From the NCBI GenBank assembly GCA_030649955.1, contig JAUSFD010000005.1:1-64000 (forward strand): DNA of 64,000 nt. The letters are read 5' to 3'. The notes under the pieces were generated by a model. The model had not been told where the DNA came from. It ran no database searches and saw nothing but the letters and a program-made list of their open reading frames with translations. Numbering within the stretch: the first letter of the stretch is position 1; each line of letters begins with the position of its first letter. This document shows, in pieces, positions 4,846 through 53,269 of the stretch. The stretch comes from Candidatus Peregrinibacteria bacterium. Its GTDB lineage: Bacteria > Patescibacteriota > Gracilibacteria > Peribacterales > Peribacteraceae. The translations under genes and the position numbers were made by a program.

Positions 4846-4890
4846 TCACCCGACGCTTCCTTCCATCTCCAATTCAATCAACCTGTTCAT
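4846..4890 (-). pseudogene. Remnant of a second sufB 3' end
   Basis: On the minus strand these bases read ATG...TGA and encode MNRLIELEMEGSVG plus stop, exactly the last 14 residues of SufB (4938-6341). The DNA differs from the live gene at many third positions (CGC/AGG, CTG/TTG, CTA/TTG, AGT/AGC, GTT/GTC), and every change is synonymous. The fragment was therefore selected as coding after it diverged, and it is not a fresh local duplication. It lies 47 nt beyond the sufB stop. Confidence 0.85.
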
Positions 4891-4937
4891 CCGGCTTCGT
4901 CTGCGGACTACGCCGCGATGAACTCGCAGATATTTCT

Positions 4938-6341
4938 TTACCCAACACTCCCTTCCATCTCTAGTTCGATCAGGCGGTTCATCTCCACTGCGTACTCGAG
5001 CGGCAGCTCGCGCACGATGGGTTCGATGAAGCCATTCACGATCATTGCTTTCGCCTGCTCCTCCGGGATGCCACGGCTGGTGAGGTAGAAGAGATCTTCT
5101 TCAGAGAGCTTCCCCACCGTTGCTTCGTGCGCGATCGTCACGTCGTTGTTGCGGATTTGCATGTCTGGGATCGTGTCCGTGCGGCTCAATTCATCGAGGA
5201 GGAGTGCATCGCACTCGACGCTCGCTGTGCAGTCGTGCGCGTGGGGGGCGACCTTGAGCGTTCCGCGGTAGATAGCCGCGCCGCCGCCCTTGCTGATGGA
5301 TTTGGAGATGACCTTACTCGAGGTGTGCGGAGCCATATGGAACACCTTCGCGCCGGTGTCCTGCCACTGCCCTGCATTCGCGAAGGCGATCGCCAGGTGG
5401 TCGCAACGTGCGCCCTCGCCGACGAGCATGGAGCAGGGGTAGAGCATCGTCACACCGCTGCCCATGTTCCCACCAATCCACTCCATCGTTCCGTCCCTTT
5501 CCACAATCGCGCGCTTGGTATTCAGGTTGTACGTATCGCGGCTCCAGTTCTCCACGGATGCGTATCGCGCCTTCGCTCCCGGCTTCACGAAGATCTCCAC
5601 GAGTCCCGCGTGGAGCGCTTGCGAGCCGTACTTCGGAGCCGAACATCCCTCGATGTAATGCGCATCCGCTCCCTCCTCCACAATGATCAGCGTGTGCTCG
5701 AATTGCCCCATGTTCCGCGCGTTCATGCGGAAGTACGCCTGGAGCGGTTCGCGAATCTTCACGTTCTTCGGTACGTGTAGGAATGTCCCGCCTGACCAGA
5801 CAGCCCCATGCAGAGCCGCAAACTTGTGGTCCGTCGGTGGCACGCACTTCATGAAGTACTTCCGCACCATCTCCGGATGCAGCTCGAGCGCATCGTCCAT
5901 ATCGAGGAAGATGACGCCCAGTTTCTCCCACTCTTCCTTCAGATTGTGGTACACGACTTCACTCTCGTACTGCGCGCCGACACCGGCGAGCACCTTGCGC
6001 TCCGCTTCGGGGATGCCTAGGCGGTCGTACACTCTGCGGATCTCCTCCGGCACCTTCCCCCAGTCGTCCGTCTCCGTCGTCCCGGGGCGCGCGTAGTACA
6101 CGATGTCATCAAGGTCGAGCGTCGAGAGATCTGCCCCCCACGTGGGCATCGGCTTCTCCCGGAAAATCTTCAAGCATTCCAAACGATGCGCGAGCATCCA
6201 CTCCGGTTCACTCTTATCACTGCTGATCTTCCGCACGAGCTCCTCGCTAAGCCCCTTCTTCACTCCCTCCATGTACGGTGTCGGGTTTGCGGTATCGAAA
6301 ATCTCGCGGGAGAGGCCAGAGAAGATCGGGGTGGAGGACAC
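4938..6341 (-). CDS. sufB: Fe-S cluster assembly protein SufB
   Basis: A 467-residue SufB, the core subunit of the SufBC2D scaffold. The C-terminal core carries the typical stretch IPDMQIRNNDVTIAHEATVGKL near residues 405-430 and LTSRGIPEEQA just after it; ECDALLLDELSRTDTIPD precedes it. The start is the GTG at 6341: TATACT (6348-6353) ends exactly 6 nt before it, predicting a leaderless mRNA. The gene stands alone, about 0.9 kb from sufD and 2.8 kb from sufC, instead of in the usual sufCBD order. A remnant of another sufB 3' end lies just downstream. Confidence 0.96.
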   Translation of the reverse strand: MSSTPIFSGLSREIFDTANPTPYMEGVKKGLSEELVRKISSDKSEPEWMLAHRLECLKIFREKPMPTWGADLSTLDLDDIVYYARPGTTETDDWGKVPEEIRRVYDRLGIPEAERKVLAGVGAQYESEVVYHNLKEEWEKLGVIFLDMDDALELHPEMVRKYFMKCVPPTDHKFAALHGAVWSGGTFLHVPKNVKIREPLQAYFRMNARNMGQFEHTLIIVEEGADAHYIEGCSAPKYGSQALHAGLVEIFVKPGAKARYASVENWSRDTYNLNTKRAIVERDGTMEWIGGNMGSGVTMLYPCSMLVGEGARCDHLAIAFANAGQWQDTGAKVFHMAPHTSSKVISKSISKGGGAAIYRGTLKVAPHAHDCTASVECDALLLDELSRTDTIPDMQIRNNDVTIAHEATVGKLSEEDLFYLTSRGIPEEQAKAMIVNGFIEPIVRELPLEYAVEMNRLIELEMEGSVG

Positions 6342-29275: not shown

Positions 29276-29463
29276 TGATATTGCACTTTTTCCGCTGTAG
29301 ATTCCTCCCTCACGAAACAGCTTGTACACTGCCAGTAGTTCACATCTTGTCGCCTTCGCTCCCCACTTCGTCCGCTGCGGCGGACTTCGCGGGGCGGGCA
29401 GTGGTAGAGAGAGAACGTCACGCTGATCGAGAATCTGATCATTCCAAAATCTCCGTACATCTT
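29276..29463. other. Gap between rnpB promoter and tRNA-Thr
   Basis: I see no gene here. A GC-rich palindromic stretch (TCCGCTGCGGCGGA with CGCGGGGCGGG) near 29368-29399 resembles the CGCCCCG/CGGGGC repeats at 19024, 51295 and 51397. Confidence 0.5.
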
Positions 29464-29538
29464 GCCGCCTTAGCTCAGTGGTAGAGCAACGCACTTGTAA
29501 TGCGTAGGTCCGGGGTTCGAGTCCCCGAGGCGGCTCCA
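29464..29538 (+). tRNA. trnT: tRNA-Thr(UGU), CCA encoded
   Basis: The acceptor stem is GCCGCCT/AGGCGGC with discriminator T and an encoded CCA (29536-29538). The D arm is TAGCTCAGTGGTAGAGCAA, the anticodon arm ACGCA-CTTGTAA-TGCGT with anticodon TGT, and the T arm CGGGGTTCGAGTCCCCG. It reads ACA codons. It is preceded by the rnpB region and followed by a small ORF. Confidence 0.97.
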
Positions 29539-50483: not shown

Positions 50484-51359
50484 CTATCCAATAGTCTCAT
50501 TCCGCTTCGTTGGCATTGTTGTTACCACCAGTTTCCACCCATACCAGAACCTCAAGAGCTCATGCCGGAGCGGGAGCCGTACTCCTCGGTGTGGCAGAAG
50601 CCAGATCCACAGGAGCTTCACGAGGGCGATCGCGCGGGACTTGAATGTGTGCCACACGCGGTACTTGAGCCAGTGTCCCCACCCTTTCCCGCGAGATTTC
50701 TCTCTCTCAATTTCGAGATATTGCAGGTTCTTCCTGCGGTACTCCTCGATCGTTCCGAGGGGGGCCAGGCTCGCACCTCTGAGTCGGATGATCTTCGTTC
50801 CGGGCTTGAGCTCCGGACGCTCATGCACGGGTTTGATCCACCGCGTTACTGCATCGCGGTTGAAGAAGTATAGGCGTTCGTTTGGGTACGTCGTCGCATG
50901 CGTCACCACAAATCCATCGGGGAGGACGTAGCGGCGGGGGATCTTGCACGCGCAGGGTTCGCCCTTCTCGATGATCGCGTGGATCTCCTCGAGGAGGACG
51001 GGAGAAGCGTACTCATCGCTGTCCATAGAGAGAATCCAGGGTTTCGTCGCATGCTCGAGGCCGGCATTCCGCGCCACGGAGAAATCCGTGAGGGGCTTTC
51101 CTTGGTCCTGGGTACTCCGCTGTTGGACGATCGTCGCACCGAAGCGCTTCGCAATCTCCAACGTATTGTCCGTGCTCCCTCCATCAATCACGAGCACTTC
51201 CTCGCACTCGCGCACACTGTTGAGTGTCTTCTCGAGCGTTGCGCCGGAGTTCCACGTGAGGACGTGGACGCTGATGGGGAGGCGATCAAACCCCACTCCG
51301 CCCCGTTCTGCGGGGCTTCGCGGGGTAATGAGTTGCTGTAGAATTTCCGAATCAGACAT
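50484..51359 (-). CDS. GT2 family glycosyltransferase
   Basis: A 291-residue GT-A enzyme of the WaaE/KdtX-like type. The motifs are LPISVHVLTWNSGATLEKTL, VLVIDGGSTDNTLEIAK, DFSVARNAGLEHA and the metal site LSMDSDEY. The first 25 residues are not conserved and include a translated repeat hairpin (TPRSPAERGGVGF). The ATG at 51359 lies inside the duplicated gtrA 3' end, with TATAAG 10 nt upstream. A GTG at 51296 just before the conserved domain is the alternative start. Confidence 0.85.
   Translation of the reverse strand: MSDSEILQQLITPRSPAERGGVGFDRLPISVHVLTWNSGATLEKTLNSVRECEEVLVIDGGSTDNTLEIAKRFGATIVQQRSTQDQGKPLTDFSVARNAGLEHATKPWILSMDSDEYASPVLLEEIHAIIEKGEPCACKIPRRYVLPDGFVVTHATTYPNERLYFFNRDAVTRWIKPVHERPELKPGTKIIRLRGASLAPLGTIEEYRRKNLQYLEIEREKSRGKGWGHWLKYRVWHTFKSRAIALVKLLWIWLLPHRGVRLPLRHELLRFWYGWKLVVTTMPTKRNETIG
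51290..51330. repeat. CGCCCCGTTCTGCGGGGC hairpin repeat
   Basis: CCGCCCCGTTCTGCGGGGC followed by TTCGCGGGG. It codes part of the N-terminus of the GT2 gene and has a sister copy about 100 nt away at 51391-51428. Confidence 0.75.
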
Positions 51360-51390
51360 AAACAAAGAACTTATAGAGAAAGAAATTCCA
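51352..51390 (-). pseudogene. Remnant of a second gtrA 3' end
   Basis: On the minus strand this reads WNFFLYKFFVYV plus stop, identical to the last 12 residues of the GtrA protein at 51450-51836. The DNA differs only at synonymous third positions (AAC/AAT, TTT/TTC, TTC/TTT, AAA/AAG, GTA/GTT). It lies 59 nt beyond the gtrA stop, and its TATAAG and ATGTCTGA are reused as promoter and start of the next gene. Confidence 0.85.
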
Positions 51391-51428
51391 CCCCACGCCG
51401 CCCCGTTGTGCGGGGCTCTGCGGGGTGG
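51391..51428. repeat. CGCCCCGTTGTGCGGGGC hairpin repeat
   Basis: Sister of the copy at 51290-51330. It sits exactly between the gtrA 3' remnant and the live gtrA 3' end. Confidence 0.75.
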
Positions 51429-51449
51429 AACGAAATTGAAAAGATCTGG

Positions 51450-51836
51450 TCAGACATATACAAAGAATTTATAGAGGAAAAAGTTCCATAACACCGTTAC
51501 TGCCCAGCTCACGAACTTCGCACTCCCTTCATCCAAATGGAGCCGTTCCACGAGGAGGTACAGGATGGCAGTTTGCGCGAGGATATTGAAGACGTTGATG
51601 ATGCAGTACCTGACAAAATGATTGATCATCGCCTCCCTCTTCTGGAAGACCAAGTACTTGTGGAGCACGAACGCACCGAAGAACCCGAGGACGTTCCCCA
51701 CGATGTTCGCCGTCACGTACCAAACGTCGAGGGAGAGCAGCAGGAAGTAGCTCCCGAAATCCAGCAGCACCGCGATTCCACCGCTCATCAGGTAGAGCAG
51801 GAATTGGTGGAGATATGGGCGGAGGCGAGAGAGCAT
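51450..51836 (-). CDS. GtrA family membrane protein
   Basis: A 128-residue protein with four membrane segments (HQFLLYLMSGGIAVLLDFGS, VTANIVGNVLGFFGAFVLHK, YCIINVFNILAQTAILYLLV, KFVSWAVTVLWNFFLYKFF), the GtrA layout. GtrA proteins are thought to flip or position lipid-linked sugars made by a GT2 partner, and a GT2 gene lies next to it. The ATG at 51836 is chosen by family length; a TTG at 51881 would overlap the upstream gene. The 5' region is a GGATTN word repeat. Confidence 0.88.
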   Translation of the reverse strand: MLSRLRPYLHQFLLYLMSGGIAVLLDFGSYFLLLSLDVWYVTANIVGNVLGFFGAFVLHKYLVFQKREAMINHFVRYCIINVFNILAQTAILYLLVERLHLDEGSAKFVSWAVTVLWNFFLYKFFVYV

Positions 51837-51843
51837 CGATACG

Positions 51844-51880
51844 AGGATTGGGATTCGGATTTGGATTAGGGTTGGGAGCA
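51844..51880. repeat. GGATTN 6-nt word repeats
   Basis: GGATTGGGATTCGGATTTGG and ATTAGGGTTGGG form a run of six-base words at the junction of two genes, overlapping the 3' end of the membrane glycosyltransferase gene. Confidence 0.7.
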
Positions 51881-53269
51881 ATTGGAGGGATCGGGTTGGA
51901 TGATGTAGTAACGGCGGACGGCTTGGGTGGTTCTGTCTGCGAGCGCGGTCACCTCCTCCTCACTGAGTTTACGGAGGATCGGCATACAGAGTTGCTTCTC
52001 ATCGAGTCCGACGAAGCGCTCGGGGAGGCGATCGGAAATCTTCTGTGCTGTGAGGAAGAGCCAGTGTGGATTGGGCTCGAGGCGTACGAACACGTCTGCC
52101 TGTTGAATGATGAGATCGCGATCGGCGAACTCGTGTTGGATGAAATCTGCTGCCTCTGCAGCTTCTGTCGATGTACTGGATCCGAAGTGCTTCCACTGCC
52201 AGACACCCTGCAGCAGGATGATCGCCGCGAGGACGAGAGGGGCGAAGCGCCGACGACAGAGTGCTGTTGCCCCCGCGGGCACGAACGTGAGAAGGAGTAT
52301 GTGCGCGGGGAGGAGGTGGCGGTACCAACCAAAGCTGCTCAGGAAGTAGAGCGTGAAGAGCGCGATGAGGGTTGCAAGGACGATTCCCACGGGGCGAGGG
52401 AGGCGCGAACGCAGCTTCCACAAGCCAATTCCTCCAAGGATCAGGAAGACACCGTACGAGAGGAAAGGTAGTCGGAAGAGGATTTCCTGGTGTGTGAGGA
52501 GGTACAGGAATGGAGTGGCTTCCGTGGTCTCACTCTCACCGAAGAGGAAGCGGAACTCCCCGAGCAGTCCTGCTTGACTCTGCATCTCCAGGAATCTCCA
52601 GGGGACGTAGATGATGAGTGCAAGTATCCCCGTCATTGTCAGTCGTCGCACTGTGCACCAGTCTCTCCTGATGATTGCATTGATCCATGCCAGGATGAGA
52701 GCCGGGTAGATGAGACCGTATGTGAGTTTCGTGAGGACGCTGAGACCAAAGGAGATTCCCGCGAAGGCGCTCCACTTGCCTACAGTCTTCTCTTCATGCA
52801 GGAGACAGAGGAGTCCCAAGAGCAGGAAGAAGAGTCCCGGCACTTCTCCCATCACCGGCTTCCCCGTGTTCACGAATGCTGAGAGCGTTATTAGCAGTGC
52901 CGTCGCCCATCGAGCATCCCGTCGTCCCGCCACTCTCTGTGTGAAGATGTAGAAGAGGATCGCTGTGCCGATCACGTAGAGCGCCATCGGGATGCGGGCG
53001 ACGGCGACGGAGAATCCGAAGAGCTTGATGGCGAGTGCCACCGGACCGATGAGAGTGGGTCCCACTGCGAGGATGTACGGGAAGTGCCAATCCTCTCCCA
53101 GGAGTGGAAGGGAGAAGCCTCTCCCCTCCGCGACGGACCGTGCGATGATCATGAAGAGGCTGTCATCCGCCCAGGCGGCCGGGAACGTGCCGAGTTCGCG
53201 GAACGCGAAGAAGAGGAGGAGGGTGCCGAGAGCCAGCTCGGGGAGCCATGTTCGGAGGTACTTGAGCAC
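51866..53269 (-). CDS. GT39-like membrane glycosyltransferase
   Basis: A 467-residue protein with about ten membrane segments. The first external loop has AAWADDSLFMIIARSVAEGRG, the acidic pair typical of ArnT/PMT-like enzymes. GEVPGLFFLLLGLLCLLHEE and SFGLSVLTKLTYGLIYPALI are further family-like blocks. TAGGAT ends 6 nt before the GTG at 53269, with an upstream TG (TGGTAGGAT), so the mRNA is predicted leaderless. gtrA and a GT2 gene follow on the same strand. Confidence 0.85.
   Translation of the reverse strand: MLKYLRTWLPELALGTLLLFFAFRELGTFPAAWADDSLFMIIARSVAEGRGFSLPLLGEDWHFPYILAVGPTLIGPVALAIKLFGFSVAVARIPMALYVIGTAILFYIFTQRVAGRRDARWATALLITLSAFVNTGKPVMGEVPGLFFLLLGLLCLLHEEKTVGKWSAFAGISFGLSVLTKLTYGLIYPALILAWINAIIRRDWCTVRRLTMTGILALIIYVPWRFLEMQSQAGLLGEFRFLFGESETTEATPFLYLLTHQEILFRLPFLSYGVFLILGGIGLWKLRSRLPRPVGIVLATLIALFTLYFLSSFGWYRHLLPAHILLLTFVPAGATALCRRRFAPLVLAAIILLQGVWQWKHFGSSTSTEAAEAADFIQHEFADRDLIIQQADVFVRLEPNPHWLFLTAQKISDRLPERFVGLDEKQLCMPILRKLSEEEVTALADRTTQAVRRYYIIQPDPSNCSQP

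Follow-up and report, generated by a model that had tools for sequence, protein, structure and literature searches.

Echoes of gene ends beside polar hairpins in a Peregrinibacteria genome and a candidate mechanism for their origin

Introduction

Why should the last codons of a gene appear a second time shortly beyond its stop codon, encoding the same peptide with different letters? The question is raised by the gtrA gene of a Candidatus Peregrinibacteria bacterium, which lies in a window of 64,000 nucleotides (assembly GCA_030649955.1, contig JAUSFD010000005.1) that starts within a 16S rRNA gene (positions 1-620). A first-pass annotation of this window described the second gene end, here called the echo of the live gene, together with a similar arrangement at sufB. 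It proposed a recurring mechanism of gene replacement, targeted to 3' ends and possibly helped by hairpin repeats. Bacterial genomes commonly contain hairpin repeats, whose effect is mostly unknown. The relatives with names among the genomes used here are Candidatus Peribacteria and Peregrinibacteria; the Peribacteria are small bacteria about which little is known.

The gtrA and sufB loci

The live tail of gtrA and its echo are identical at 34 of 39 nucleotides, and the five differences are all synonymous (Table 1). Both end with the stop codon TGA, and the echo begins 59 nt past the live stop on the minus strand, as first annotated. The hairpin noticed between the two ends, called P here, is flush with the echo, the first five bases of which are covered by its right arm. 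The start of the glycosyltransferase family 2 gene overlaps the echo stop. No open reading frame is present in the 59 nt between live stop and echo, an Rfam search found no family at the echo locus, and phage records searched with the DNA of the gtrA locus contained nothing similar. The source genome (G000) holds only three close copies of the gtrA hairpin.

The arrangement at sufB is the same as that at gtrA, so the first-pass annotation was right to regard it as a second case. The right arm of the sufB hairpin overlaps the start of the echo, and live tail and echo differ at ten positions, all of them synonymous and none of any other type. In both gtrA and sufB the spacers that follow the stops of the live copy and of the echo are unrelated.

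Besides these two cases, the window contains a second gtrA-type hairpin, P', and a third echo, that of a tRNA-Thr head. P' lies 100 nt beyond P, in frame in the N-terminus of the glycosyltransferase gene, to which it contributes PRSPAERGG-like residues, bringing Rickettsia palindromic elements to mind.

Table 1. Positions of live genes, hairpins and echoes in the window
Feature	Position	Strand	Basis
sufB	4938..6341	-	PF01458
sufB live tail, MNRLIELEMEGSVG-stop	4938-4982	-	sequence comparison
sufB hairpin, GTAG on live side, CGAAG on echo side	4885..4923	-	sequence/fold
sufB tail echo	4846..4890	-	sequence comparison
tRNA-Thr (TGT), live copy of the third echo	29464..29538	+	ARAGORN
tRNA-Thr hairpin, GAAG on live side, CGAAG on echo side	29361..29394	-	
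Echo of tRNA-Thr head with 8 nt of upstream flank, 18/20 identical	29342..29361	-	
gtrA, 143 aa, GtrA/DPMS transmembrane domain	51450..51881	-	ORF; Pfam PF04138, E=1.8e-22
gtrA live tail	51488-51450	-	encodes WNFFLYKFFVYV-stop
Spacer past gtrA live stop	51427..51449	-	does not align with sequence after echo stop
Hairpin P: outer stem, 3x3 internal loop, inner stem	51386..51430	-	inverted repeat and fold
gtrA tail echo, WNFFLYKFFVYV-stop	51352..51390	-	sequence comparison
Hairpin P', 89% identical to P	51290..51326	-	inverted repeat
Glycosyltransferase family 2 gene	50484..51365	-	ORF; PF00535, E=3.6e-19

Frequency and spread of the echoes

The echo scan that the first-pass annotation had named as a check compared the last 15 residues of each gene with the sequence before downstream stop codons, in 1550 genes of the source genome and its relatives, with re-paired genes as the control. 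At a score of at least 35 it detected 7 genes against 0.2 expected. One of the seven, L033, probably reflects a tandem repeat within a spurious open reading frame. The distance from stop to stop is 77-101 nt in all seven, and the inter-stop spacing of the echoes takes all three values modulo 3. Further cases are the sufB gene of G198, L034 and the SecA tail in G012.

In the source genome, of which about 680 kb out of 1.67 Mb was scanned, the tails of gtrA, sufB, L071 and L034 and the heads of tRNA-Thr and tRNA-Val (contig L079) have echoes. Of 353 genomes in the class, two carry the gtrA echo (G000 and G003) and two the sufB echo (G000 and G198); among 116 genomes chosen across the phylum, the sufB echo is found in the source genome only. 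Echoes of 5' gene ends are present at the MSTLVLLRH gene of G031, the MKLLMISGD gene of G002 and the MRLLMISGD gene of G003. An echo of the tRNA-Thr head occurs in G030 as well. Both the tRNA-Thr echo of the window and the tRNA-Val echo retain part of the flank; for a tRNA-Ser case in G031, masked bases obscure whether a hairpin adjoins the echo. The phenomenon is thus neither due to chance nor unique, yet it is sparse. No description of an association between hairpins and echoes was found in the open-access literature.

Polarity of the hairpin junctions

The annotation had also asked whether echoes lie next to palindromic repeats. Almost all junctions examined have a hairpin next to the echo (gtrA and sufB in two genera each, other genes, 5' ends and tRNA heads); a strict detector confirmed 7 of 16 hairpins, the remainder being judged by eye or fold and some being weak. 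The overlap between hairpin arm and echo ranges from 0 to 7 nt. The relevant hairpins contain G-T pairs and 3x3 internal loops; a flank test with a detector of near-perfect stems was negative because that detector missed them.

Where the hairpin is asymmetric, GTAG, GAAG or TGAG stands on the side of the live gene and CGAAG on the side of the echo. GTAG is present at the sufB hairpin and in G003, and GAAG at the tRNA-Thr hairpin, in G198 and in G028; the gtrA hairpin has no GTAG. The polarity is the same for 3' echoes and, with the strand turned, for 5' echoes, and therefore the orientation tracks the hairpin and not the gene. The echo begins at the CGAAG-side end of the hairpin irrespective of gene direction. 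For gtrA, sufB and the MKLLMISGD genes, the junction falls on the identical nucleotide in different genera.

The association was also examined blind to genes, with 40 strict GWAG..CGAAG hairpins in about 2.5 Mb, a set to be read against the 15 false positives of a reversed-sequence control. Direct repeats span nine of these hairpins against 0.35 expected. Flush copies occur nine times on the CGAAG side (0.66 expected) and five times on the opposite side (0.63 expected), the latter five comprising tandem arrays, the two-unit locus of G028 and one low-complexity repeat. New tRNA-head cases emerged from this test, among them the tRNA-Thr head of the window, which is flush with its GAAG..CGAAG hairpin. 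A flush, polar hairpin junction thus recurs in several genera, at 3' as well as 5' gene ends and at tRNA heads. The supposed targeting to 3' ends is not supported, as protein genes show the same geometry at their 5' ends and tRNA genes at their heads.

Several dispersed elements were seen along with these hairpins. Copies of the hairpin are dispersed in G028 and its genus. In the source genome a repeat some 140 nt long (ends TCAATGG..GGATTGA), with such a hairpin at one end, is dispersed over L025 (near 16513), L031 (near 4416), L075 (1-155) and the start of L083; two contigs start at this repeat. Y1 transposases are encoded in G000, G003, G031 and G198 and in neither of the hairpin-bearing genomes G028 and G012, and no such hairpins were found beside the Y1 genes of the source genome. 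Y1 genes of relatives (L203, L208, L214 and L222) lie near GTAG..CTAC palindromes of their own, which are unlike the echo hairpins.

Coding history of the echoes

In a simulation of neutral copies, a copy drifting in place is expected to differ mostly at protein-changing sites. The excess of synonymous differences was significant (p<=0.0135) in 12 of 13 coding comparisons, the exception being L034 (p=0.10); a decayed echo used as a control gave p=0.18. Part of the coding set was found by protein similarity and is biased towards echoes conserved as protein; a scan at the DNA level gave the same coding cases as the protein-level scan. As the coding echoes differ from the live ends mainly at synonymous sites, they were protein-coding until recently, and the statistics show that selection acted on them at the protein level up to that time. 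Consequently, live copy and echo are usually the ends of two diverged homologs. The unrelated spacers of gtrA and sufB fit such a joining of two ends.

States of single loci in related genomes

The NAIGCSIKWK gene presents the structure in several states within one genus. Its end is plain in G217 and G218. In G215 the live end is followed by a hairpin and an echo, and in G216 hairpin and echo have decayed and the gene runs on into the hairpin. In the latter genome (L184, near 2044) the loss of the stop codon has led to read-through of the spacer into the decayed hairpin and to a longer C-terminus. The same gene in G028 shows two generations: beyond the live end, hairpin and intact echo lie another hairpin and a second echo, both decayed. 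These states show that the structure is common to several genomes, decays without selection and sits where recombination between species occurs. Plain, intact and decayed states of one locus within a genus speak against both an assembly artefact and a function of the echo itself.

The sequence past the G215 echo matches that past the plain end in G217 and G218, and the echo is nearer to these plain relatives than the live tail of G215 is. This suggests that the displaced end may be the native allele in G215; for the window no donor genome was found, the compared genomes including no relative of the source in the same genus. The G215 gene is a mosaic of its relatives. A foreign tract confined to its 3' end was sought and not found, the gene being mosaic throughout.

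Units also expand beside the live gene. In G003 the gtrA unit of 94 nt is present as identical repeats, beyond which a diverged copy lies on the far side of a contig break; contigs L045 (1-200) and L046 (1-60) end within this tail-hairpin unit with an overlap of about 28 nt. At the MRLLMISGD locus of the same genome, identical units are accompanied by one outer, diverged unit.

A possible mechanism of echo formation

By combining these observations, it is possible to outline how an echo might arise. The explanation that we favour, with a confidence approaching but not reaching an even chance, is an illegitimate junction or template switch, anchored at the hairpin, between homologous and usually diverged copies of a gene, which leaves a remnant of the native tail. 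The gtrA echo would then be what is left of a second, homologous gtrA copy, namely its tail of 12 codons and the stop. The incoming DNA would have consisted of a complete gtrA with its stop, about 20 nt and the hairpin, and one hairpin end would have been joined to the other gtrA copy just ahead of its last 12 codons. A strand carrying a stable hairpin might stall or end at that hairpin, and the stalled strand could be joined to the homologous copy, or prime synthesis on it, 40-80 nt upstream. Homology would guide the choice of the partner, and the hairpin would act in the strand in which it folds best. If the partner is a sister copy, identical tandem units as in G003 would be produced; if it is the DNA of a relative, an intact gene with its hairpin would be followed by the native tail remnant, that is, the gene would be replaced. 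The units may later expand, decay or recombine. Support for the proposed join comes from the echo and direct-repeat counts, the junction sequences, the synonymous excess, the graded states of the NAIGCSIKWK locus, the match between the sequence past the G215 echo and that past the plain ends in G217 and G218, the mosaicism of the G215 gene and the identical 94-nt units of G003. We infer the stall and switch, or illegitimate recombination, at the hairpin, and likewise the partner in the source genome. Of the idea that hairpins help gene replacement, what stands is that the layout recurs, is tied to hairpins and has an echo with the look of a diverged homolog's displaced tail.

A rather doubtful, though still credible, history is that slippage at the hairpin within one genome duplicates tail, stop, spacer and hairpin, and that the allele of a relative later replaces the live gene alone by homologous recombination, leaving the old allele as the echo. 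The identical units in G003, the flank held by the tRNA-Thr and tRNA-Val echoes and the mosaicism in G215 speak for it; the unrelated spacers of gtrA and sufB speak against it, and it requires two events, the second soon after the first at many loci. Simple tandem duplication with neutral drift is rejected for gtrA and sufB by their exclusively synonymous differences. A mobile REP- or MITE-like palindrome, which on insertion duplicates 40-80 nt of its target and lets gene ends survive because the duplication restores them, is an unlikely identity for the hairpin. The scattered copies within G028 and its genus, a fresh-looking U-hairpin-U in G003 and the GTAG motif would agree with such insertions. 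However, a target duplication is symmetric, so that the live gene would be expected on either side of the hairpin, whereas in the asymmetric cases it is on one and the same side; the fixed polarity thus disfavours symmetric target-site duplication. Moreover, the hairpins and Y1 transposases do not occur together, and we know of no bacterial transposon with target duplications as long as 40-80 nt.

Fixed polarity, a junction position shared to the nucleotide between genera and a layout equal to that of fungal hybrids formed by mobile ORFs (PMC3630166) would all suit a homing-like process, in which recoded gene ends spread into relatives as cassettes, driven by a nuclease or HUH enzyme whose site of action would be the hairpin or the end of the native gene. 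Such a process is nevertheless improbable, given that the 59 nt hold no open reading frame, the spacers of one gene vary between genera and no enzyme was identified. Conservation of echoes at the protein level, including both G028 and G215, might indicate that they are functional, either translated or regulatory. This is very unlikely: the spacing between stops takes every value modulo 3, the echoes share no start codon, the one in G216 and the outer one in G028 have decayed, and no obvious function unites 3' tails with 5' heads and tRNA heads. A translated micropeptide and a programmed bypass were both rejected, as neither frame nor start codon is common to the echoes. An artefact in which the assembly joined two strains at hairpins has some appeal for metagenome assemblies, and contigs of G003 do break within the unit; it is nonetheless highly improbable in view of the graded states of one locus in separate genomes of the same genus and of the cases in the single-contig genomes G028 and G030. 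As for the favoured junction at the hairpin, random joining does not predict that different genera should use one and the same nucleotide, and a site-specific or homing-like step is therefore conceivable. Also counting against this junction are the lack of a donor genome for the window, the weakness of some hairpins and the preference of the protein-level scan for echoes conserved as protein.

Similarity to known systems

Mobile ORFs have created hybrid genes in fungal mitochondria, namely atp6 in Allomyces and atp6, atp9, cox2 and nad3 in Glomus (PMC3630166). In these hybrids a foreign, synonymously diverged C-terminus is followed by the displaced native C-terminus; the protein is nearly identical and the DNA 64-81% identical, and the two ends are separated by an endonuclease ORF (PMC3630166). 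A diverged live end and a displaced end encoding nearly the same peptide are likewise found here. Unlike in the fungal hybrids, about 59 nt and a hairpin separate the ends, there is no endonuclease ORF, and the echoes of Peribacteria occur at 5' ends and tRNA heads as well.

REP palindromes of 20-40 bp with a GTAG (or CGTC) tag at one end are associated with TnpA-REP (RAYT), and the word "duplication" does not appear in the paper describing them (PMC3733652). The echo hairpins share with REPs their short, GC-rich form, a frequent position near 3' gene ends and, in most cases, GTAG or GAAG at the foot of the inner stem. They differ in that the gtrA hairpin has no GTAG, CGAAG stands on the second arm and the association with Y1 (RAYT) genes is not seen. 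Rickettsia palindromic elements (mentioned in PMC3733652) resemble P' in its in-frame position in the glycosyltransferase N-terminus, although the sequence of P', judged by inspection, is unrelated.

The restored end upstream and the displaced old end downstream also recall e14 in icd, an integration into the 3' end of a gene; unlike there, neither an element nor an integrase lies between the ends of the echo loci. In homology-facilitated illegitimate recombination one side is homologous and the other is joined via a few bases of microhomology. The echo junctions similarly have one homologous side, and the overlap of 0 to 7 nt between hairpin arm and echo may amount to such microhomology, whereas their non-homologous joint is always at the hairpin end with fixed polarity. 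This type of recombination is discussed for natural transformation in PMC6382021. The echo system works like a gene-end replacement and bears a resemblance to the fungal hybrids and to REPs.

Implications

A bolder view, which we hold only as a possibility, is that the hairpin family constitutes a polar site of recombination or template switching in Peribacteria, which moves recoded gene ends, including 5' ends and tRNAs, between species as cassettes devoid of ORFs. It would be a bacterial counterpart of the C-terminal replacement in fungal mitochondria. If the proposed origin of the echoes is true, hairpin repeats would be tied to a concrete outcome of recombination, and some puzzling partial genes and tRNA fragments would be explained. 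The polar link between hairpin and remnant would then make past allele replacements between species legible in the sequence.
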